Shown here: in pieces, positions 1,134 to 57,951 of the stretch
How positions within the stretch are numbered: position 1 is the stretch's first letter
How the letters are laid out: every line of letters starts with the position of its first letter
Assembly: GCF_000203815.1 (NCBI RefSeq)
Contig: NW_004457718.1
Span: forward strand, 434,001 to 498,000
From: Cavenderia fasciculata
Taxonomy: Eukaryota > Evosea > Eumycetozoa > Acytosteliales > Cavenderiaceae
Length of the DNA: 64,000 nucleotides
Direction: 5' to 3'
Made by a program: the position numbers and the translations under genes
The notes under the pieces: generated by a model
Databases searched by the model: none
Told to the model about the DNA's origin: nothing
The model's input: the letters and a program-made list of their open reading frames with translations, nothing else

Positions 1134-4100
1134 ATGCAATATGTTAACGGACATGATATAGCAACACAGAGTATTACCGAGGTTCAGACATTGGCATTGT
1201 CAAACAGAATTCCATGGACTCGATTACAAGCCGAATCATTTGATCCGGACTCTTCGATTTGGGGCTACCATAGTCACGAAAAGGGTATTTATCTAAACAG
1301 AGGTATATGTGATTTCAACATATCCCCAGAAAATATGTTTGAACTTCTTTATAATTTAAAATCTAGAACTCAAGTAAGAAAAAGAAAAAATGAAATTTTG
1401 ATCGAAAAGTTACAAAAAAAAAGAAATATTAACTTTACTTTACTTTTCTATTTATTTTTAGTGGGATATACATTGTAAAGAAGCAGATATTATGGAAGAA
1501 TATGATCATTTAAATCATATAATTAGAATGATGATGACACATCCATTGGGAACCATTAAAATGAATCTTTATCGTAGTTGTCGATATGATCCTCAAAAGA
1601 GATTGTATGTGATTGCAATGCGATCCATTGAATTGGATGACCATGATCCAATGGAAAATTGGTTTGAGTGTTTACCAAATGGTTGGATCATTCAAGGTGT
1701 AGATGGAAGTCGTGATCGATGTAGATTAATATTTGTTCAACAATGTCATATGCGTGATATTGAACTTCAATCAATTCCTGGTTACAAAGTAAATATTAAA
1801 TACAAAACAAAATAATCATAATAATAATAATATAACGATATATTTATTTTTGTTTATTTTTTAGTCATTTGAAACAAGTGAACAATTAGGGGATTTTCAT
1901 TATTTGACAATATTTCCTGCAAGTGTTGGAGGTAGATTAGGAAAGATTTTCGAATGTTTGAAGGATTTTATTCTACTCAATGTCAAACAAATTGAAATCA
2001 AAGATACTCGATTAAAAATACTAGAACAAGCTGAAAGACAGGTCAATGAAATGTTTGGTACTTCAACAATCGATTATGGTTTCACTAGTAATTTTAAAAA
2101 ATATGGTACGCGAAATGAACTCTGAGTTTGAAAAAAAAAAATCAAAGTATATTAATTTTCATTTTGATTGTTTTTAGATATGGAAATATTAGTTAAAAAG
2201 ATTGGAGACATTTATTATATGATTGGAAAAGGAAGTTTTTCATCACTTTATACACCGATGGAAATTGCCGATTTGTTGTATTGCGATGATCCGTGGGGAT
2301 GGGACACATTTTATGAAAAGAGCTCGGTCGTTGAGAATATTACGCCGACTGCGCGAGAGGTGGAGTTGTTCTATCGAATGTGGCATGAGTCGTTTACAAT
2401 GCGTGTGTTGCAGTCTGTGAGAAAGGGCCCGGGCAACTGCTCGGCCGTGTTGTGGCGCTCGGTCGACTCGCACTCTTCCGAGCCGCCCTCGCAGCTGGAC
2501 ATGGAGCTCGGGTTTCTGCCAAGCGGTATATTCAGCTACGGACTGGGCGAAGGCAGCTTCACGTCGTTCCTCGTGGGTATTGGCGTGAAGGGTGCCAAGA
2601 CGTCGGACGAGGAGAACTTGATCGCCAAGTTGTTTGCGGCACGAGTCATCTCGACGCAGAACCATATCATCAATGTGATGAGTTTGAAGAGTAGTCGTGC
2701 ACAGACTAACAACCCGACGCTGCCCGTCATTCCAACACCCCTCAAACACTCGGAAATCAACGGATACGCCTACGACGATGACTCGGTCGGCGGGTCACCC
2801 GCCGTCTACAACAACATGGTCGAAGACTTTGCCAACCTGCTTCTCGCAGACTCGGTCGCCGTCAACCAGAAAAAGGCACAGCGCGATGTCAGCGAAAGCA
2901 CAAAGAGCAAGAGAAAGCGCAACTATGTCGATGAGAGCGAGTCGGATAATGCCAATGTCCCCTCCCCATCCCAGCCTGCACAGACGCAAATGGACATTGA
3001 CCAAGAGACGGCGGCCATCCAGGCACAATTCCAGCAGCAGAGAATACTCCATTTGCAACAGCAGCAGAGACAGCGGTACCCGTCAATCCAGTCCAAGCGT
3101 CCAGTCCTTCGCATTGCCTCGAATATCGCAAAGGACGGCCACGGACAACACCTCCAACAACAACAACAAGATGAAACATCTCTGGAAAACATGCCCATCT
3201 GGAATTCAACCAAAAGACAACCCTTTTTGTTTTTGGTGTCAGAGAGTAATGATGTCAAGAGACTGACGCGCAAGGAGCTCAGTCTCAGCAACTCACACTT
3301 TGACAACTTACCAGAGGAGATTGTGCAGACTATATTCTCGTTCCTCGGAGCCAGCGACATTTTGTGCGCGTCAATGGTCTGCAAGCGATTCAAACTCACC
3401 ACAGACTCGAGTATCCTCTGGAAACAACTGTATCTGTCCAACCCAGTCTTTAACAAGGCTGTCCCCAAGCGTTACCGTCCCGCCAAACCATCCTCTCCAC
3501 TCGCTGTCAACCCCGAGGTCATCGCTACACTCGCTGCTGTCCTCGGTCCCGAGTTTGACCTTTCCCAGCTCGCACCCCTCCTCTCGGGCGGCCAAGTCGA
3601 CCCCGACGTCATGGTCAGTGTCACAGCCAAGCTCTCCAAGCAGTTCCCCGAGCCTCCTCCCCCCGCATCCCCTCCCCCCGAGCAAGCCGTCCCCTCTACT
3701 CCTACCGCTGACAATTCCAATCCCAATCCCAACACACCAAACCCAACCGAACAGTTTATGCAGATGATTTCAATGCTAACAAACAGTTTGGCCAAGGAAC
3801 AACACAGTCCTGCCGACTCTACCAATCAATCGGGGAGTTCATCGGGTTCCAGTGACGAGGGTGGAAGTGGAGTGGCGCGAATGTGCGGGTGCAGAAAACA
3901 ATGTATGTGCGTGTGTCAAAAGGGATGCAACTGCGAGTGTCTCAATGAGGATCTGGCAGGCATCACTAATTGGCGCAGTCAGTACTTGCATCTTGTCAAA
4001 CTAAATGACCGATGGAAAATGGCCGTGCCCAAAAAAACAATCGAGCTTAAAGGACACAGCAAGACGGTACGTCAGGTGCGCTCGGAGCAAAGCTCGGCCA

Positions 4101-5080
4101 TCTCTGTGTCGGCTGACAAAAAGGTGCGTTTCTGGAACCTCAATAGTGGCCAACACATTGGCACGTACGAGGAGCCTGGCACAACCGTCCTCTCCATCGA
4201 CTATGACAAGACATCCAAAACATCGGTTATATGGCCACTATCAGACTACACCAAAGTGCATATCGGCCATAAAAACGGTCTAGTCTCACTCGTTGACTTT
4301 ATGGAGCGTCCACATATCATTGTCTCTTCGCAACGTCCTGTTCTTTTAGCAGACGGTTTTGATTTCTCATCCCCCGGGAGATATGTTATTTGGGAGAATA
4401 ATTCGGTTGATTGCTGGGATGAAGAGAAAAAAGTGAGGTTGTGGCAGTCGGTCGAACACACCAAAAAAATACAACAGGCTCGTGTTATATCCAGCACACT
4501 CTTTGCCAACGGGCTCGTTGGAACAGCGTCGTCTGACAAGACTGTTAAACTGCGCAATATGTCGGATGGTGTGACAGTCGCCTCTCTGGCCGGATACACT
4601 GGTGTCGTCAACTGCCTGGAACCTGTTGGAGACTACCTGCTTGCCAGTGGGTCAAGTGACAAGTATGTCAAGTTGTGGGATCTCCGTAAACTAACTACCC
4701 CCATCTTTTCAAGTAACGCTCATTCCTCTCCAGTACGTGCCGTCTCGTACGAAGAAAATGGTGGTCGTCTCATCACTGGTGGTGACGATGGTACCGTCAT
4801 TCTTTGGGAGTTGGATAATTGGAGTAGAGGTCGTAGAGAATGTCTTGGTATGGTTACTTCACAAACATCACAACAACAACAAACATCAACCTCTTCAACT
4901 TCAACTTCAACTTCAACCTCCACCTCAACTCATCAAAATACAACCATTTCAATTGGAACAGTCAAAGAATCAGGTAGACTTGTCAACTTGAAATCAGGAA
5001 TCACTTCTATTGATTCCGATGAATCTGGTTTAATTGTTGGTTGCCAAGATGGATTAATTTATAGATATGATTTTGCCTAA
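1134..5080 (+). CDS. START-like / F-box / WD40-repeat protein
   Basis: Four exons fit consensus splice sites and keep frame: 1134-1373, 1462-1788, 1865-2105 and 2178-5080, giving about 1236 residues. Residues 1 to about 260 resemble a START-type lipid-binding fold (WDIHCKEADIM, then PNGWIIQGVDGSRDRCRL). An F-box lies near residues 643-690 (FDNLPEEIVQTIFSFLG, then SILWKQLYL). A Cys-rich patch (CGCRKQCMCVCQKGCNCEC) follows. From about residue 888 there are roughly seven WD40 repeats (IELKGHSKTVRQV; SSDKYVKLWDLR; TGGDDGTVILWEL). Gln-, Pro- and Ser-rich linkers lie between domains. F-box plus WD40 proteins normally act as substrate receptors of SCF ubiquitin ligases; a lipid-sensing role for the N-terminus is inference. 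The large last exon is markedly GC-richer than its flanks. The F-box and WD40 calls are firm; the START call is moderate. Confidence 0.88.
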
Positions 5081-7075: not shown

Positions 7076-10000
7076 ATGGATGCTAGATTAGATGTCAACT
7101 CATCGGGGTTGACATCCACTCTGATATCAAAGTTGTTTGATAGTTTGTCGGCATCGTTGGATACGACGTTGATCAATGTGATCAATGAAGACCGTGTGAT
7201 GGGGATGCCGACACCGATCAGCAGTTCGACGTCATCGAGTTCGTCGTCGTTGCAGGTGGGTGGCGCGATTACTGGCTCGGCGTCGGCATCGTCGTCCAAC
7301 CTGCAGGGTGGCGGCGGCAGCGGCGGTGGAGGTGGTGGAGGCGGGTCGGGCAGCGCAGCATCGACGATACTTAGCGGCTCGCAGTCTCTGCGTATGTCCA
7401 AGAGCAACACACTTATCCGCAAGCTAGCCAACAGCGGCAAATTGCTCAACGACCAAACCAACGAGCGCGACTGGGCCAACTTTGCACGCGACTTTTGGTT
7501 CTACTACCCCTCTCTCATGCTCATCTCCGAGTCTGCCAAGTACTGCAAGACACAGTCGTTGCGTCTAGTACTCGACTTTTTACCACGCCACGTGCAGTTG
7601 TTGCAACACAGTCAGACAGCCACCACCTCTACATCTACCACCTTTTCAGCATCGATTGTGTCTAATTTGGCCATGCCCGTTGTCAACAGCAGCAATCAGG
7701 CCGGCGCTGGCGGACTCAATAACAGTGGTGGCGGCGGCAGTGTTGGACGGTCGACACTCAACGGCCAATCATACCTAGTCAACCCGGGAAGCACGCCATC
7801 TAGCACGTTGGTGACCGTGTTGTCGTCGGGTCAGAATAGTCAGACCAAGATGTTCTCGTTTGACTCGTTCCTCCATCAGATCAGTCCGTCCATCTACCAG
7901 TCGGACGCCAAGTATCTCGACCTCATAGAATCGACCGTCGAGATTGTCGTCGCAGACATCATCACGCATATCCTTGGCACGGGTGCCAACTCGATCAGCG
8001 AGTCGCTGGTCAACCGTCTGCGCGACATTGCATTCTACTACTTTAAACCCCTCACCCCACGTTCTCTCAACCAACAATCTTGGCAATCCCTACGTTACTC
8101 CATCTCTGATCAATGGTCACTTATCCTTGGTCAAATTTCAAGAATCTCGTAAGCAATATGATACATAATCATTTCTACAAGTTTACTAATCTTTTTTTTG
8201 TTTAATTTTTATTTTTTAGGTTGATATCAATTACAGGACACTTAAACAAGGTGGTATCTTCAACACCAGGTACGACAATGGAAGATTTAATATCATATTT
8301 TAAAGGGATTCGATGGATTAGTTTGCAATTGAATGACAAGGATCGTATGATAGAGGTTGAAAAATTGATTGTACAGGTGTTGATGTGGATCGAGGGCAAT
8401 AAAAAGAGTGTACTTCGATTGGCACAACTAGAGTCGTTGGATGGTATGGTGTTGTCGATGCCCGATTACACCATCTCTACAGGCATTGTCGAAAAGATGA
8501 AACTACTATACAAGCGTGCCGAAAAGCTACTCAAACATGACGACTTTGAGGAACGGTCACTCAAACTCATGACAACGATCTTGACACGTGGACCCAACTC
8601 GGTGTTTGAAGAAGAGTATGATAATGTACTCAAACGGTTACTCAAGACGTTGTCGGTGCAAAAGAAGCGTGATTTCTCGCTAGAGTGTATCTTGCGTCTG
8701 TTGCAGGGTCGTTTTGTGCCACCTCGTCGTATCACTGGTATCCAGGCACACCTGTCAGCCAGCTCGTCGGACCAGTCGTCCATTGCAGCTCAGTTGCAAC
8801 AGCGTCTGGATAGAGTCTACGAGAATCAGGGTAGTTACCCGTACGCTGGGTTATCCAATAATCGCGCCAAGATGATTCCACGTCTTCAAGATATTATCCA
8901 GGTACTCTATGGAAAGAAACAGATCGTTCCCAAGGTGATCGAGTGTATTGACCTATTGGTCGCCATCACCGTACATATTGCAGTGCATAGTCTCAAGTTG
9001 TTGACCGACACGATACTACCCACACTCTTTTCCAACGCCTCTCCACTCATGCACGTCATTGCCTTGCGCACCCTCTCCATCATTCTCGATCCGTCCGACG
9101 TATTTTGGAACACGTCACCATCGGCCAACTCGCGCAACACAGTCGTCATTGGCGACATTACCTATGTCAAAAAGGAGGATATCCAACTCACCTTTGAAAC
9201 ATTCCTCACCAAATCCTTTAAATACTGCGAGGAGCAGTCTGGCGGCGAAGCTTCCTCCTCCTCTCAAGATCCACTCATCATCTCTACTCAATTTGAACCA
9301 ACCATCTCTTTATATTCTTTAATTTCTGATCAAACTAGTGTTTATAAATTTGAAGTAAGAAGAAGAAGAAGATTAAAAAAAAAAAAGAAAAAGAAAAAAA
9401 GAATAATTTATTAATATTCATATTTATTTTATTTTTAGAGCGAAACAACAGTTGAAGCAATTAAAAGATGGTATGATGTTTGTACAAAAACTCCAGAACA
9501 AAGAGAAAAAGAATTCTTTGATCAATGTCGTGTTATGGTATGAAACAAAAAAAAAAAGGAAAAGAAAAGAAAAAATGTATTTACTTTATATTTATTTATT
9601 TTGATTTAGGGAATTAATTTAATGAGTAAGATTTATCAATGGGAAAGTTCAAATCAACTTGTAAATATACCATCAGAACCATACCCAATGAAAAAGAAGT
9701 CAATCAAGAAAAAGACGATTAATCCAGAATTGTTGGAACTTTTCAAAGAGACTATTCGATGTGTGACATTTGTACCCAAGACATTTGTGTTGCACAATAC
9801 ACTGCATAAACTAGTACTACATGAAGAGGAGGAGATTGCGACGGCGGCATCACACGCCATTCAGGTGATTATGTGCGATTATCCAAACTTTAGAACCAAC
9901 TTGGTGCAGGGATACACTTCACTCATTCTACAGTATGTTGGCAAGGACCATGTGTCTTTGCAGACATTGTTGTCACAGTTGCTTGGGTTGATCGATTTGT

Positions 10001-13000
10001 GGAACGAGCGATCGTTTATCGAGTCGCGTCATTCAAGTGTGCCGCTCGACTCGTCATTCTATCCACCCAAGCTGCTCGAGACTGAGATTGAGGGTATTGG
10101 GTTGGTACATTTGTGCAGTCCTAATCCACAAACTAGAATCATTGCATTGCAGTTGATTCGTAGTATTAGTGGTATTAGAAATACAGAGACGACCAACACG
10201 CAGGTTGCATCAGTACTACATACTCAGTGGAAGACGATTGTGCAGCGTGCACGTCACCAACTTTTGCTTGACAATGCGTATGGTATTGACCGCGACCTCA
10301 AGCTCAATCCAAATGATGAGTTGCCATCGGCAGAGGAGATCGTGTCGAGTACGCATGACCGTCTGTGGGCGTTTATCCTCGCGGAAATTGGACGTTCACT
10401 CGTCGAGCAAGATTGCGTGCGCACGCTGTCTAAAGCACGTGGTATACTGCTCACTATCCTCTCGAGCATGCCACCCATCCCCACACCTGAAGTGTTGGGT
10501 GCGGCGATCATGGTGAGTGGCGGCAGCGGCAGCGGCACGACAGCCGACGACCAGAAACGGTACGCGTCGTACACACTGCGTCACCTCTGGATCAACTGCC
10601 ACGCACTGCTGTTTGCATGCTCGGGTATCCCCTCTATCTACCCGCTCAAGCCAGACCCCGGCTGCACCGAGCAGCTCGTCTGGGACATGATCAACTTTGA
10701 GCACGCGCTCCAGGCCAAGGTCACCAACTACCTCCCCAACTTTTGGGCAGCTCTCCTATCCGACTATAGTTGGATTCGCGAGAAGCTGTCGTTTATCTGC
10801 GGGTTGTTGCATTGGCGTCTGCTGCCTTGTGTGATCGACTCGCTCAACAAGTGGTGGACTGACAACCGCCAGAATAAAAAGCTGGCACGTGTACGTGTCG
10901 ACCTGTCCAACATCTTTAGACGTATCTCGCAGCACAAGGACTTCCCACGCGCACTCAAAGAGTCCAATGACTTGATCCAGGTATTTGTGCAGTTTATCCA
11001 GCAGATCGACCCCATCTTTGGCGACGCTACCAAGCTGCCATCTGTCGTCAACGAGAGCTATTTCAACGACAATGCAGTCGTCGTCTACAACTTTTGCAGC
11101 TCGTTGTACCAGCCCACTCCGTGCTCGATCGTCGGGCCGGTACGCAAGTCGCTTGCCAGCTCCATCCGCAGTATTCCATGGACAGTCGGCGAGCGTTACA
11201 AGACGTTCAAGGCGATCCTGCAGTGGTCGGGTCACCCCAAGGTATCACAGGCTCGTATGCAATTGGAAGCGATTGAAATCAACAAACGTCTGTCCAAGGC
11301 AAAAGATTCGAGTGCACGTGACGAGGAAAAGGATCGTATCGAGAATGCGCTCAAAAAGATCAGATATTGCTCGCGTCTCGCCGCCGAGAGTATCCTGCGT
11401 CTTGGCACGTTGTTTGAAGAGGGACGTCTCCAACAAGACGTGCTTGAATGGGTGGTCGACTCGGAACACAAAGGCAACCGTATCCTTAGATGGGTGTTGT
11501 CCTATCACTTTGACGAAGCGTACGCCTATTTCCTCAACAAGTGTTATTCAGAGAACCCAGCTGAATCAGTACTCTACTTGCACTCAATCTACGATCAGTA
11601 TTTGCCTATCCCACCTGCCAACCCTCCAACACTTGGTATCACACAAGATATCTTTCAGTTTTATGCAGATCGTGCATTAGAGGAACGTGCACAAGTCGAG
11701 CTTGAAGACGATGTTGTCACGGCAATTGACCGAAACTTTTCACGTAAATTGACCGAGATTGGGTCATCGCTTCTTTTCCTTTCTAGTCTCAATCTTCTCC
11801 ATCCAGCATTCCTTGCACGTATTCGATCATTTGACATTATTGCCCGTTTGTCGCCGTGTGCGTTTGGTCTGCTCCTCGAAGAGGACGATGAGGTGCGGTC
11901 GGCACTCCTACCTCGTCGTCAGGCGTTTGCATCGCGTATCGCCGCCACCAACAAGCTCAACGCCCTCGCAGTGTCTGATATCGTCTCCAAGAGCTGTTCG
12001 CCGTGGACTGAACGACTGTTTGAGGAGGCGTTTGCCAGATTCGGCACACTCAACGCCACCAATAAAAAGTGGGTGGTACAATTCCTGCTGCCGTGGTGCG
12101 ATAATGTCTGGTTGGCGGGTGGCGAGCATCGTCTGACTCGGTTCACATCGATTGGATTCCTCAAACTGTTTTTCGGCGTCTTTACAGAGTCGATGGCCAA
12201 CATGGCGACCAACGAAGTGCCACCCGAGCTCATCGAGCTGTGGTTGGCACTCGCTCGCCGCGACCCACAGAATCTGACGTGTATCATCAACTTCCTCATC
12301 AAGAAGGGTATCGCGTCCAAGGATGCCATGCCTATCTGCAAGCTCATCATCTTGCACATCTACCGATCCAACCCTGCGGCCACCCTTGAACCTCTTATCT
12401 ACCAACTCAGCTACATGGGTGTTGTCACATCTGAGAAGCGTAGTTTGTCAGAGGACGACCTTCTCAATCAGGGACTACAAGGGTCCACTTCTGCAGCTGG
12501 AGGAGCTGGTGGAGCAGGCGGACTGACTGCCAGCGGGTCAGCCGATGAATCACGTAAACTGTCCAAACAACAGTCTGTCAAGATCCGTGAAGCGTGCGTG
12601 CTCACCATCACTGACCTCGTCAGCGAGAATCTCGGTCCTATCATGAGTCACCTTCACATCTTGTTCAACTATAGTTTGTTGCGTATCGATTCGACCGAAG
12701 CACCCACCCTCACCAAGATGATCACCGTCCTACTGTCGTCGGTGCGTAACAGCATGTTTTCGCATATGTTTGACGAGCCCGACCTCAAACCAGCACTACG
12801 TAACGTCATCCGTTCAATTGACACTATATTGACTGCGTTCCGTCTGCCTACATTCCAGATTAAATTCAATTTCCACAATTTCAACCAGGATGGTAGTAGT
12901 TCAGCATCATCGCCATCCTCGAACAAGTCTAGTGGTAATGGTGGATTCTCCAAGAATGCAAGCACTAGTTATATATTTGAAGAGCAACGTACGAGTTATC

Positions 13001-16000
13001 AACAACCACTCAAATCATCGTCGTCGAGTTCCATCACCAACTCGAGCTCGACCGTTACATTTGGTAAAAAGAGTTCGGTTGGTTCACCGACTTCGAGCAA
13101 TGGTGGTATGGGAGAAAACAAAGATGATTTGATCGAACACAGAGACGAGATGATTAAATGCTCCAATGGATACATCTATGTCAACGAGTTGATCAAAGTG
13201 TTGTGCAAGTACTTTGAGTTGCTGTCGCCAACCACCATTGACAAGTGGGAGAGTGAAGCACTCATGTGGATCAAAAACTACAAAGACCCGAGAATATCGA
13301 TCAAGGCGTGTCAGACGTACCGCTCCATCATCCACTGTCAACAACAGTTGCCTGACCATTTGCGAGACTTGTCCAAGTCACAAACACTCAAACGTCAGAA
13401 AACACGTTGGGCATCGTCGGTCGAACTACTCGCCGTCCTCTTGCAAGAATGGAGTGAAGATTTGGAGAATAGTATGAATAGTATTATCAAGATTCAACAA
13501 CAGCAACAGCAACAACAACAACAACAACAACAGAGTAATAGAACACTACTCTATGAACAAGGTATAGCAACTTTTAGTCGGACATTGTGCATAGAGATAT
13601 TGTTGGCGATGCGACAGATTGTAGAAAGCAAGAATCTCGATGAACATTCGATATCTTTGATCTTTTGGAGTTCGATTTCATTCTTGGCAACTAGTAATCC
13701 ATTCTACGAACCATTGTATAATACAGCGTTGGATATTGTTCGTTTGATTATTATCGAACTTAAGATATTCAGCTCGGACCCACTCGTCATGATGCCGTCC
13801 ATCTCGGATCTATTGCACAAGCAGGCGACCGAGGTGGTGACTATACCACGTGGCATACAGTATCATCTGTTCAAGGGTATATTGAAACCAGGCACCGAAG
13901 AGTTGGCAGGTGAGTTGTTGGTCGAGTTTTACGGGTTGACTGACGACTCGCTGGTCGATCCACTTGGCGCACCACAACGATATTTACTACCATTGATTGC
14001 GCTGACTCCATGGCTACACAATAAGATTCTGAGTAGCAAGTCGTCCATCATCTACAAGGAGCAGCGTTTGGTAGCCGACAAGATTGCCAAAAAGTTGGCA
14101 GAAACTATGATGTTGATCGTAGAGGATGAAGAGAATGGAGAGGAGGATTTGGCCGGTCTCCCAATGCTCAAACTTTCCAAGGTGTTTATGCAATACTCTC
14201 AAGGATCGTTCAACTCTAATCCAGACGAGTTTTTGGTGCAAGTGACATCACTCATTTGCAAACTATGTCTACCTGATTTTGCCAACGAGTGTGCCGATCT
14301 CATTGGCAATATGCTCGATAATACAGCTCAGCTATCTACATCGATTCTCAAGATGACCAACATGCTGCTCAAGGAAGCACCCGCCGGAGTCATCCCTCTG
14401 TTCAAGAATATCGTGCGTGTCGCATGCGAGTATGGGTCGTCGTCACCCGTTGCCGGCGATCTCATCCACATTGTATCATCAACCATGAAGAACAACACAG
14501 TTGCACCGTCTTCACTCCCTCCATACCTCCCACCCGTCGAAAAGGCACCTCCCGAGACCATCAAGGCTGTGCTCGGTCCCAAGTCGGGTGGCAAGGACGG
14601 ACAGAGCGAGCTCGCGCACAAGCGTCCCCGTAACGGGCACCGTCGCAACAAGTCGGCCATCACAGACCACCCATCACTCAAGGAAAAGGCAATCAACGAA
14701 AAGAAGATGCAGCCACTTTCACCTCCAAAATTCTCAAATGTATTTAATCAACAACAACAACCTCAACAACAACCTCTTCAACCTCAACAACAAACTCAGG
14801 TTCAAGTACCACATATTACAACCAAACCATCTCAATCATCTCAACCTCAACCACAACCATCTCCACAACAACCACAAAAATCAGGGTCAAATCAATTATT
14901 GCATCCTGGTGCAAATACACCTGGTAAACCATCTTCAGTGTCTTCGACATCGTCGCCATTGCAAACAGCGGATTCTGAAGACTATGAATTTGAATTTGGT
15001 GATGACGAGATGATCAATGATATTATTGATCACGATCCATTGACCGTTTCGATGATGCAAAAGGCTTGGAGAAACTCAGACGAATACAATGTCTACTTGG
15101 ACATGGAAGAGAATGATTTTGAGGGCATTGACGAGCTCAAAGAAGGATTGGAAGGTCTCGACACGGGTGCACTCCTCTCTAAACTCGGTCCAACTGCCTC
15201 TATGATGCAAATCAACGTTCCCAAGAATTTGATTCAAAAGCATGCTCCTCAATCCAAACCTGCAGCACCTCAACAATCACAACAATTGAGACCACCCCAC
15301 CAACAGCAACAACAACCATCGACCACCACTACTCAACAACAACAACAACAACAACACGCTCCAACTCATATTGTTTCTCATACTGAAACTCATACTCATA
15401 TTCAAAAGACACCAGTTACAAGCAGTGTAGTACAAAACATCAAGACGGGAGTAGCCATCTCAAGAAGTTCAAGTGATTTGGATAGTCTTCGTGAATTACT
15501 TCATAGCAAGGATGGAAAGAGAGGTAGTGTGACATTGGCAGACTCATTCCAAATCGATCAGTTATTATCACACCTCGATTCACTTGATCTCAACAGACTC
15601 GATGCAACTTTGGAAGACATGTCAAACGATTCACCGTCCAACTCATTCTTGAGCTTTTCAACAACCACTGGTCCACAAACTCCACAGACTCAAGTTGCGC
15701 CTGCACCACAACATACTGGAGTACAAGCAGTTTTGGCTGATGCCAAAAAACGTAGATCATTCCTCGACTTTTTGAAAAAGAATCATTACCAAAAGAGTGT
15801 CAACGATGTATGCTTTGTCGAAGTGGTCAATGATTTCCGTGCCGAAGGTGGTGGTGATGAAGACATTGGAGGCGACGGTCTCCTCTATCTGATGCGTCAT
15901 ATTGTCGAAGGGTTTGTCGTTGAGAGTGCTCGCCACCAAATCTCCATCACCGATTCAGCTCGTACCAACATTATCAACTCGTACCAGGAATCCATCGATC

Positions 16001-16101
16001 AAGGTCACTGTGTCAACACTAAAATGTTTGATGAAGCTCTATCAACCATCACCAAAGAACTAGAGTCTAGTGTATTGGACCAATTTAAATCAATTAATTA
16101 A
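7076..16101 (+). CDS. Furry / Tao3 / Mor2 / PAG1-type cell-morphogenesis scaffold
   Basis: Four exons join in frame: 7076-8148, 8220-9354, 9439-9537 and 9610-16101, giving about 2932 residues, the usual size of the family (Tao3 and Mor2 are 2200-2400, animal Fry about 3000). The N-terminal third carries the Furry N-terminal signature (FSFDSFLHQISPSIYQSDAK; LRDIAFYYFKPLTPRSLNQQ). The central block beginning NPELLELFKETIRCVTFVP aligns with animal Fry, including LHEEEEIATAASHAIQVIM and GLVHLCSPNPQTRIIALQLI. Armadillo/HEAT-like helices continue to about 14700, followed by low-complexity Gln/Pro stretches (a Gln run near 13495-13531 and others near 14750-14880 and 15300-15355) and a conserved tail. 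Furry proteins scaffold NDR/LATS kinases with Mob cofactors and control cell polarity and cytoskeleton. The last exon is a 6.5-kb intronless frame with notably GC-rich codons. Confidence 0.93.
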
Positions 16102-50512: not shown

Positions 50513-52902
50513 ATGTCGGGAGGAGAACAAAAGTTAACATGGGAATTACTAGAGAAATGGACAGGAGATAAACTACAAAAGATGGTTGGGTGTCAACCCG
50601 ATGATATAGTACAACATGTATTCTCATTGGAGAGTGTTAGAGACATTGAAAACTATCTATCTGATCTACTCGGTAACACAAGACAATCAAAACAATTTGT
50701 TGAAACATTCTTAAAGAAAATGAATTCTCTACCCAAGAGAACAAAGGTAAAAAGAGATATGATAGATAATAGTATAGAGTATATGAATATATGATATTAA
50801 CAAATCAATTCTATTGTTCTATATAGAAAAAACAATCACTTGCACATACAATACAAGTTAAACAAGGACAACAAGGACAAGGACAAGGACAAAAGGGAAA
50901 CAAACAAAAAGTAAAGATATCATCATTTTCAGAGATACAAATTGATGGTACTATAGGAGATACATGTGAATGTCAAGCTACCAAACACAAGTTGATTGGA
51001 AACTGTTTGAATTGTGGAAAGGTGATTTGCGAGCATGAGGGTAACGGACCATGCAAATTTTGTGGAACTGCTCTCAACTCCAAGATTGATCATTCCAAAC
51101 CGATTGTCATGTCTGACAAGGAGACAGCTGCCATTCAATACAAGGATCGTATCTTGGGCTACCAAAAACATGGTGTTCAACGTACCATTGTCTATGACGA
51201 CCAAGAAGATTATTTCTCCAATGCCAACAACAAGTGGATATCGGCCGACGAACGAAAAACCATTCAACTCCAAGAGCAAGAATACAATGACAAGATGGAA
51301 AAGGAAAAGAAAACAATTAGAATTCAATTGGATTTTGTCAATGGTCGTATTCTACCTGCCACAACTCCCATCGCTCCACCAAAGATTGAAAAGTTAAATT
51401 TAACAAATCAATCAAATATAGAGAAAAATAATAATAGTAATCAAAACTCGGTTGAATCTTTGAAATTAAAAGATGGTGATCAAGTAGTAAAGAATATGCA
51501 TTATGTAACTGAACATCGTAGACATATTCCAAAATCAAAACAACAACAACAACCAAAAGGAGGAGTACAATCTAAACAAAGTTCAGTCGTACAACAATAC
51601 TATGGTATAGAAGACGATGGATTCATCTTGAATAATAATCAAGAAAATGAAAATCAATTTAAATTTAAAGGTATTATTGAAGGTTTATGGTTTAATAATT
51701 TTCATCAACAACAACAACAACAAAATAATCAAAATAACCAACCTAATCAACTGAATCAAATTAATTGTAAATTACCAAATTCAAATATTTATAATAATTA
51801 TTTAAAGACATTGGGAGAAAAGAATAATAATTATTTTATTATTGGACCTGATCAGTATCATCAGGATACTGTCTTTTCATTGACATCGACCGTTCCAAAG
51901 AGTACGTTGGAGTTTGTAAAGTCGTTGGTTGACCAATCCACCAAATTCAAAGTAATGATCAATGTTGCACTGCAGATACCAATGGATTTTGTATTTTCAG
52001 CTAGCGATTCAGTTTCAACACTGAAAAAGAGAATAGAGAGTTATTGTAGTGTTGGAGTCAGTCAGTTTACATTGGTTCTACCGTATGGTTTCAATGACAC
52101 TTTTACAACCATTCCTACATCTGTTCAATGTGCAGACTACAATACTGCCAAGACCTATGCTTCATGCCAGGTGACAACGATCAATCAAGTGTTGCAAGAG
52201 CTTAGTGGCAAGGTCAAAGACATGTTGGTGTGTCCTAGTTACTTCCAAGTTGATTTGGCCAAAGCTCCAACACGACAACACATTGAGTATTGGAGAGAGC
52301 TGATTAGAGGTCTAGACACTAGATGCACATTGGCCATCTCAACACCAAGTGGTCGTTGTGACAATTACATCCTCTCCAAACTCTCCAATCTGTTTGATAA
52401 ACGTCAAATTGTGATTATCGAAAAGTTCCCCTACCGTTCACGTGTCGACAAGAATACTGTCTTGCTCGATGCCTACCAACCACTCTTTTCAGACAATGAT
52501 CGTCGGTTGGCAGGTGTCTTGGCCACACCGTACAACCATAGTTTCCTCCTAGACCGTTTGGATCTTTTAATCCCTTTGACCACCTTTTCACAGTACCTTC
52601 ATTCGCCACACAGCTATCAAGACGAGTTGACCATGAGAGCCAATCTCGCCGAGATGATGATGAATGACTCTTTGGCCGAAGATTTTGCAGACGTTATCAT
52701 TTCACTCTCCAATGGTGTCCTCGATACTATGCTACTCGATATTAGCACATCGATCGATGACCGTGGTCGTGTATTCATCTCCAATCTAGTTCAAAAGGCT
52801 CAAAATGTCCTCACATTCTTTTCATCCAGTAGTCTAGAATTATCAAAATCCATTCAAAATATTATTAATATTTTATTACGTATTTTAAATAAAAATAAAT
52901 AA
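50513..52902 (+). CDS. TRIP4/ASC-1-type zinc-finger protein fused to a GH84-like domain
   Basis: Two exons, 50513-50746 and 50827-52902, give 769 residues. The N-terminus (DDIVQHVFSLESVRDIENYL) and the C2HC5 zinc finger at about residues 126-160 (CECQATKHKLIGNCLNCG, then CEHEGNGPCKFCGTAL) match TRIP4/ASC-1, subunit of the ASCC complex for ribosome rescue and alkylation repair. YDDQEDYFSNANNKW is also a TRIP4 signature. Instead of the usual C-terminal ASCH domain, residues about 357-700 resemble the GH84 (O-GlcNAcase/hyaluronidase-like) barrel: FKGIIEGLWFNNF corresponds to the GVVEGFYG strand, FVFSASDSVSTLKKRIESY with VGVSQFTLVLPYGF to the strand that normally ends in the catalytic Asp pair, then VLATPYNHSFLLDRL to the NPM motif and YLHSPHSYQDE to its end. 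The Asp pair is not seen, so this part is probably not an active hydrolase. The TRIP4 call is firm; the GH84 call is my inference from motif order. Confidence 0.82.
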
Positions 52903-56400: not shown

Positions 56401-57951
56401 TTTATTATTTACATTTTAGCATATCCATTTATTACAAGTGGAGTTGTAAATGATGCTGATGGTGAACAAAAATCAATTAGTTTGTATGGTGATTTTGGAC
56501 CATTGGAAGAATACACAAATGCAACGGTCACTTTTAATAATACAATTAGTTGTATTGTGGCTATTGGTTCATCTGGTCATTATAACCTCGACTGTTTATT
56601 AGATGAATCACCAACTTCATTTGGATATGTCTCTGTTCAATTAAACCTAGATGGTCTATTGTATAAAAGTGATAGAGTATTCCAATTTATTGATCCTTCA
56701 TCCCCAGGTGGTTCAACTTCAACTGCTACCACCTCAGGTTCATCATCCTCTTCTACTGCCACCCCAACATCTTCACCAACATCTTCTTCTTCAACCGGTG
56801 TAACAACCAACACTGCCACCACAACTACCACAGGTTCATCTTCCCCAACATCTTCTTCTTCAACCTCTGGAGGAGGTGGAGGTGGTGGAACTCCAAAAGA
56901 GCTATGTCAAAAAAGAACACAAAATTGTTATGGACATGGTGAATGTGATGATAATGGAGTATGTCAATGTGAAGAGAAATATAATCCTGTTGATCATTGT
57001 GCAACTAAGTGTATGTAGTTATTTAATTTATTTGGATTTTTTGATTATTAACTTTGTAATTTATTTATTTTAGTTGTTGATAATTCAACATTTACACCAA
57101 ATACAACATCACCATCATCAAAGATTGAAGTTGATGGAGTTGAATTTGAATTTGAAATTATTGCTATTCAAGAAATTGGAATTGATAATGATGAGATTGT
57201 CAAGGAGTTGTTTACAGTTGATTGGTTGTCAAATATTAGCAAACCAAATAGTACAATGATAAATGCAGCGTATGAGTTGGTTATTTCCAATACTAGTCGT
57301 CTTGCAGATACCAAAGTAAATGTTAATATTACATTCTCTACGTTACCAAGAACTGTAGTGTTTGGTGATCAACAACTCATAACCAATCCAAATTCTATCA
57401 AGATGTCAGTATCCATCACAGATTGGAGATTTTCAACTAATATCGGTACACTTAGATTGGTACTTAAAACAACAATCAATAATCAACAATCGATGAAATA
57501 TGATTGTAAAGAGACTAATGTGGATTCATTTGACTATGATGATATTGGTGATGTCCAGTATCTAAGAGTTATCAAAGACGGTGTTCAATTCAATGGTAGA
57601 TTCATTGATTTTGCATTGGCAAATGGTAGATCAACTTATTCAAAAACATTTGTTATCAATCAAACTGAAATCATTGATAGTGGTGATCAATCAGTAGCAA
57701 TGATTGGTATAACTCTACCACAATGTCAAGAGTGTATTCTCGATCCTGATTTCACACCATTATTGGTTGTCAATGACAAAAATGACGATTGTGATGGTTC
57801 GAGTAACACTTGGAAGATTATCGTTGGAGTTGTTATTGGTGGTATTGCATTAATCGCCATCATCATAGGTGCAGTAATGTACACTAGAAAGAGAATGGAA
57901 TTCAAAAAACATAACAAGATTATGCAAGCCAAATTAAGAGCACTTGGTTAA
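53409..57951 (+). CDS. Type I membrane protein with LRR-like, IPT/TIG and EGF-like domains (ComC-like family)
   Basis: Twelve exons join in frame: 53409-53511, 53634-53661, 53735-53815, 53886-54065, 54160-54465, 54557-54691, 54778-54843, 54919-55059, 55124-55872, 55943-56338, 56420-57010 and 57074-57951; about 1217 residues. A signal peptide (VWLYITTLILLLVSSYP) is followed by irregular leucine-rich-like units (residues about 40-430), Ig/IPT-like segments (VSQLTVGQGGVAGSTINIIG; SISLYGDFGPLEEYTN), EGF-like modules at about 693-726 and 889-918 (CHGNGQCSIFGDCIC; CYGHGECDDNGVCQC), a Ser/Thr-rich stalk, one membrane helix (about 1173-1196) and a short basic tail. This is the layout of the dictyostelid ComC/LagD-like surface proteins. 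A role in cell-cell recognition or adhesion is inferred from family. Eight introns are phase 2, splitting codons at LRR-like boundaries. Confidence 0.88.

Follow-up and report, generated by a model that had tools for sequence, protein, structure and literature searches.

How should one read a gene that begins as a TRIP4 homologue, a candidate subunit of the ribosome-rescue machinery, and ends in what looks like an O-GlcNAcase barrel deprived of its active site? The question is raised by a locus on the + strand of Cavenderia fasciculata, within the window, by which we mean the whole stretch of 64,000 nucleotides analysed here (contig NW_004457718.1, positions 434,001 to 498,000), taken from an assembly of 31.0 Mb in 21 contigs. 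The initial annotation had described a TRIP4/ASC-1 homologue without an ASCH domain, whose C-terminal half resembled a catalytically dead GH84 module that might serve as a glycan or protein reader, and it had suggested structure prediction followed by a Foldseek search as a check. The coordinates it gave, 50513..52902, were correct: the ATG lies at 50513, the last base of the stop codon at 52902, and one intron separates the two exons of a gene whose product has 769 residues. The features, in window coordinates, are the following.

50513..50746, + strand: exon 1, 78 codons
50549-50725, + strand: TRI4_N domain, residues 13-71 (Pfam TRI4_N, 5.1e-20)
50747..50826, + strand: predicted intron, GT...AG, phase 0, GC 0.20
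50827..52902, + strand: exon 2, 691 codons followed by the stop; frame uninterrupted between the zinc finger and the barrel end
50962..51087, + strand: C2HC5 zinc finger (Pfam zf-C2HC5, 1.9e-12; 8alz, 1.4e-22)
51199..51351, + strand: TRIP4 third domain (Pfam TRIP4_3rd, 1.9e-11; aligns to human TRIP4 in 8alz)
51352..51654, + strand: low-complexity linker, 101 residues of which 26 are Q or N, net charge +1
51655..52602, + strand: predicted pseudo-GH84 (beta/alpha)8 barrel, residues 355-670 (Pfam, AlphaFold2, Foldseek)
52063..52110, + strand: strand 4 and loop, the site of the catalytic Asp-Asp in GH84 enzymes; here QFTLVLPYGFNDTFTT
52621..52893, + strand: predicted C-terminal helical bundle, residues 677-767, placed as in GH84 enzymes (AlphaFold2 helices, Foldseek)

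The coding style is AT-rich and Q/N-rich, with a GC content near 35%. Measured in blocks of 150 bases, the GC of the TRIP4 gene lies mostly between 0.31 and 0.46, with drops to 0.20 where the protein is Q/N-rich and to 0.11 at the extreme end; the flanks stand at 0.19 (5') and 0.26 (3'). Elsewhere in the window, a frame of 2163 codons at 9610-16098 (+) carries a MOR2-PAG1_C domain (Furry-type cell morphogenesis) and a near-terminal RGS domain, both above cut-off, and is thus predicted to encode a Furry-like protein with an RGS domain fused to it. An open frame at 2168-5077 (+) combines an F-box-like domain with WD40 repeats downstream of it, and a ComC supersandwich domain is found at 57052-57948 (+).

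The N-terminal half is that of a TRIP4 protein, as the initial annotation had held. The TRI4_N domain, the C2HC5 finger and the TRIP4 third domain follow one another in the order that defines the TRIP4/ASC-1/Rqt4 family, the same as in human TRIP4 (8alz chain A) and yeast Rqt4, and in the profile search of the protein all three exceed the Pfam cut-offs, as does the NAGidase match described below. The top PDB match to exon 2 is human TRIP4 (8alz, 1.4e-22), and the profile search of the assembly found the sole zf-C2HC5 match above cut-off in this gene, with two weaker ones below it. With NCBIfam, the protein gave nothing above cut-off and only a sub-cut-off match. Human TRIP4 ends in an ASCH domain, whereas here none was detected and a pseudo-GH84 module of about 415 residues stands C-terminally instead. 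That this module has replaced ASCH, as the initial annotation proposed, is a claim about evolution which, from one genome, stays no more than a possibility. The absence of ASCH claimed at the outset holds for the 769-residue protein (Pfam search, E<=10) as well as for the 31.0-Mb assembly (six-frame search, E<=1), although a short domain split by an intron could escape the latter, because it reads the genome exon by exon. In the available text of two studies of the yeast RQT complex (PMC9831982, PMC9938168), ASCH is not named for Rqt4 (0 occurrences); a TRIP4 without ASCH may therefore not be unusual, and for the same reason we did not treat ASCH as a defining feature of the family.

The C-terminal part, about 415 residues long, resembles GH84 enzymes. 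The Pfam NAGidase (GH84) profile matches residues 402-692 (51796-52668) at 1.1e-13, and the matches of the region to PDB sequences include 5diy (2.9e-6) and the O-GlcNAcase 9ba8 (9.6e-5). To place it among its relatives we used an OGA-like set of at least 596 stretches gathered with two patterns, at least 570 of which encode relatives, and took the best 80 prokaryotic proteins. An HMM built from these 80 scored 59.9 bits on the barrel region, against at most 2.0 bits in 200 shuffles; the first barrel strand by itself is matched weakly (2.0 bits). Three GH84 matches were found in the genome, namely the TRIP4 gene and a neighbouring pair on another contig, C3, and on this pair the same HMM scored 66.1 and 58.5 bits. 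Identity between the barrel region and the prokaryotic proteins ranges from 14 to 21%, over the 79 of the 80 rows retained in the alignment (L048 was excluded for an undetermined residue).

With an alignment of 80 rows, AlphaFold2 predicted a TIM barrel followed by a helical bundle (pLDDT 79.1, pTM 0.82). In model numbering, the strands are found in barrel order at 18-23, 74-77, 115-121, 151-155, 203-207, 238-243, 266-271 and 299-305, and the helices at 337-349, 352-366, 369-377, 383-403 and 408-427; a Q/N-rich insertion follows strand 1, and pLDDT falls below 50 at residues 1-10, 25-31, 49-51, 81-86 and 309-313. Foldseek returned 1590 matches at E<=10, 213 of them at E<=0.001. The best 50 of the 1590 are all GH84 by title, over alignments of 398-460 columns, though for a few of these 50 structures the family is our presumption. 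The best is 5diy (E 1.0e-16, TM 0.69/0.64). The model leans on the prokaryotic GH84 alignment, and the same sequence folded without it gave a pLDDT of 42.1 and a pTM of 0.31. Because this single-sequence prediction fails, the fold rests on homology and on the alignment-based model rather than on an independent prediction. We nevertheless regard it as almost certain that the protein contains a pseudo-GH84 domain. The GH84-type barrel proposed earlier is thus borne out by the profile match and by the suggested structural check, and the four GH84-like motifs quoted in its favour are present in the protein. The T. terrenum OGA (5diy), human OGA and C. perfringens NagJ (2cbj) are homologous in sequence and share the barrel and bundle predicted here, and several of their structural Gly, Pro and Tyr positions are also kept. 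In contrast to the barrel studied here, these O-GlcNAcases are not fused to TRIP4, and here the catalytic and GlcNAc-contacting residues have been lost.

This loss is extensive. According to the available text of PMC10636738, GlcNAc is contacted in human OGA by D174, N280, K98, G67, N313 and D285, and D175 is the acid/base; we assigned these residue numbers to the alignment columns ourselves. None of the seven is kept in the main alignment of the TRIP4 barrel (G67 to F, K98 to a gap, D174 to T, D175 to T, N280 to K, D285 to S and N313 to T), which leaves 0/5 for the contacts outside the Asp pair, whereas in the prokaryotic proteins six of the seven columns are invariant (79/79) and the glycine column holds in 78/79. 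For control, five of the seven, both Asp included, are kept in each of the genome's other two GH84 genes, G67 and K98 being the positions that differ; the chain of 5diy, a D120N mutant according to its title, keeps 6/7, and the human OGA fragment keeps all five of the positions that it covers. At the place of the Asp-Asp pair the barrel reads TT in the MAFFT alignment, ND in the HMM alignment and PY when aligned by eye without gaps. The first Asp is absent from all three readings and no adjacent catalytic Asp pair is found, but one Asp might be kept, since the HMM alignment places N-D at D174-D175. The Gly, Glu and Gly of the GIIEG motif (Glu363) remain, together with several Pro, Gly and Tyr positions of the fold. 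Outside the pocket, 11 of 32 conserved columns are kept; the difference from 0/7 is not significant (Fisher p 0.16), so that the loss may reflect a generally fast divergence. An active GH84 enzyme is rejected on the loss of the pocket residues. The missing Asp-Asp, already reported in the initial annotation, turns out to be accompanied by the disappearance of the other documented GlcNAc contacts. With all seven pocket residues gone from the main alignment, where each of the other two GH84 genes retains five, the barrel is unlikely to be catalytic or to read O-GlcNAc in the ordinary manner; as far as sequence can tell, it very probably neither hydrolyses GlcNAc nor binds it in the canonical way.

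Where the barrel came from is less clear. The neighbouring GH84 pair (contig C3, 1232309-1237538) belongs to the same Pfam family, above cut-off, and differs from the TRIP4 barrel in its pocket, as described above; both genes have an intact Asp-Asp and hydrophobic starts, of secreted type by eye. In a tree of 32 sequences, 27 drawn from the 80 prokaryotic proteins together with five others, the end branch of the TRIP4 barrel is extremely long (7.14) and its placement is unsure. A clade uniting it with the pair is only marginally disfavoured (AU p 0.054), and one uniting it with human OGA is marginally rejected by the same test (p 0.035). The possibility that the barrel is a duplicate of the genome's own GH84 genes is unsupported, given this branch length and the p value of the common clade. 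Among viral contigs, single-protein queries, which detect close relatives only, found no relatives of exon 2 or of the barrel alone.

The genomic setting bears on what the protein may do. On contig C1, a homologue of ASCC3 is carried by an open frame of 2087 aa that scores 1947 bits to ASCC3 versus 1564 to Brr2, and its counterpart frame on contig C9 is Brr2-like (first Sec63 domain). As a ZNF598-like gene is also present (match to the ZNF598 PAH domain), the ribosome-quality-control-trigger setting looks intact. On the glycosylation side, these genome searches scored the best candidates only, so that counts for large families are lower bounds; they detected one GT41 locus (L088, contig C3:2459687-2460745), with two matches within one open frame. 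This frame scores 280 bits to SPINDLY versus 182 to the bacterial TPR protein 5djs and about 155 to the 110-kDa subunit of OGT. No OGT-type transferase was seen in the genome search, and because the sole GT41 locus detected resembles SPINDLY, an O-fucosyltransferase, rather than OGT, nuclear O-fucose may occur here in the absence of O-GlcNAc cycling. Excerpts of PMC11853108 describe nucleocytoplasmic O-fucose made by Spy in Dictyostelium.

How might such a fusion protein work? The relatives have been described as follows. Yeast Rqt4 requires residues 3-70 for binding K63-linked ubiquitin and attaches to Slh1 through its zinc finger (PMC9831982), which packs onto the C-terminal cassette near uS10 (PMC9938168). 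The zinc finger of human TRIP4 alone suffices for stable binding to ASCC3, while its lasso and ASCH dock near the ASCC3 C-terminal cassette and are required to raise helicase activity (PMC10076317). We consider it probable, though far from assured, that the gene encodes the organism's TRIP4/Rqt4, an accessory subunit of the RQT/ASCC complex, equipped with a non-catalytic pseudo-GH84 docking module, that is, a barrel and helical bundle of O-GlcNAcase type that would have retained the predicted fold and lost the active site. Its homology to the human and yeast proteins implies the same docking, which would carry the barrel to the same neighbourhood. The N-terminal domain would bind ubiquitin chains on collided ribosomes, as its yeast counterpart does, and the C2HC5 finger would dock on the ASCC3 C-terminal cassette, as in human and yeast. 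The linker stands where human TRIP4 carries its lasso peptide, and no sequence match between the two was found; being Q/N-rich, it might set the dead barrel beside the cassette, roughly at the location of the human ASCH domain. There the barrel, rigid and non-catalytic, could present a surface on which a protein docks, be it a client, the 40S head or ASCC3. Protein docking is our best guess because the composition is close to neutral (net charge +1 and pI 7.7 for barrel plus bundle, +1 for the linker) and there is no sugar pocket; we would give such a role in RQT about an even chance.

Alternatively, the barrel and bundle could form a nucleic-acid-binding module doing the job of ASCH, with a surface that holds the mRNA or rRNA leaving ASCC3. 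The barrel does occupy the ASCH position in the protein, and the available text of PMC10076317 reports that ASCC3 binds DNA about ten times more tightly with full human TRIP4, an effect not seen with a fragment lacking lasso and ASCH. However, the near-neutral composition just described is atypical for a nucleic-acid binder. Moreover, we know of no GH84 protein that binds nucleic acid. We hold this explanation to be unlikely.

A glycan reader, one of the functions first suggested for the barrel, is not supported as a reader of GlcNAc, with the pocket residues gone and no OGT-type transferase in the genome search. The idea may be recast: a non-hydrolysing barrel that still binds a protein sugar, such as the O-fucose added by SPINDLY, and targets RQT to glycosylated proteins. 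The GH84 ancestry of the barrel and the SPINDLY-like score of the GT41 locus are in keeping with it, as are the Dictyostelium O-fucose mentioned above and the human OGA D175N mutant, catalytically impaired yet retaining substrate binding in the portion of PMC5610315 available. On the other hand, all seven documented residues are altered in the main alignment, including the deleted lysine and the glycine replaced by phenylalanine, and no result supports fucose binding; we find this version rather improbable. Equally speculative is a scenario in which a dictyostelid lineage, whose ancestor had lost or never had OGT-type O-GlcNAc, took an O-GlcNAcase barrel as the C-terminal effector of a ribosome-rescue subunit. 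The dead pocket and its surface would by now read some particular trait of proteins, perhaps disordered segments, Ser/Thr-rich or O-fucosylated, of which this proteome has many, and RQT would thereby be directed to certain stalled ribosomes or clients.

A wrong gene model could also have merged two adjacent genes, a TRIP4 that stops beyond the third domain and a pseudo-GH84 protein in its own right. The fusion is predicted from DNA, and a low-complexity AT-rich stretch (51352-51850) separates the two halves. Nevertheless, the zinc finger and the whole barrel lie in a single stop-free frame of 691 codons, and a separate barrel protein would have few starts, because the next Met after M302 is M455, already inside the barrel. 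We infer that both halves are made from a single transcript and regard the merger as very improbable. As for a divergent glycosidase still active through other residues (the N-D pair or the Glu of EGLW), we give it scarcely any credence: Glu363 is kept and, in the HMM alignment, the acid/base position still holds an Asp, but the acetamido-orienting Asp is lost in three of three readings, as are Lys98, Asn280, Asp285 and Asn313.

In conclusion, we favour a TRIP4/Rqt4 subunit whose pseudo-GH84 module docks a protein. The titles and beginnings of abstracts that we searched contained no description of a TRIP4-GH84 fusion, and OGA is described, in the part of PMC4424335 available, as a metazoan-specific gene lacking in protists. 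If our reading is true, the occurrence in a protist TRIP4 of an OGA-family barrel devoid of its active site would mean that ribosome rescue has put a glycosidase fold to new use. Furthermore, the C-terminal part of TRIP4/Rqt4, which is poorly understood, could then be probed by deleting the domain in an amoeba amenable to experiment.
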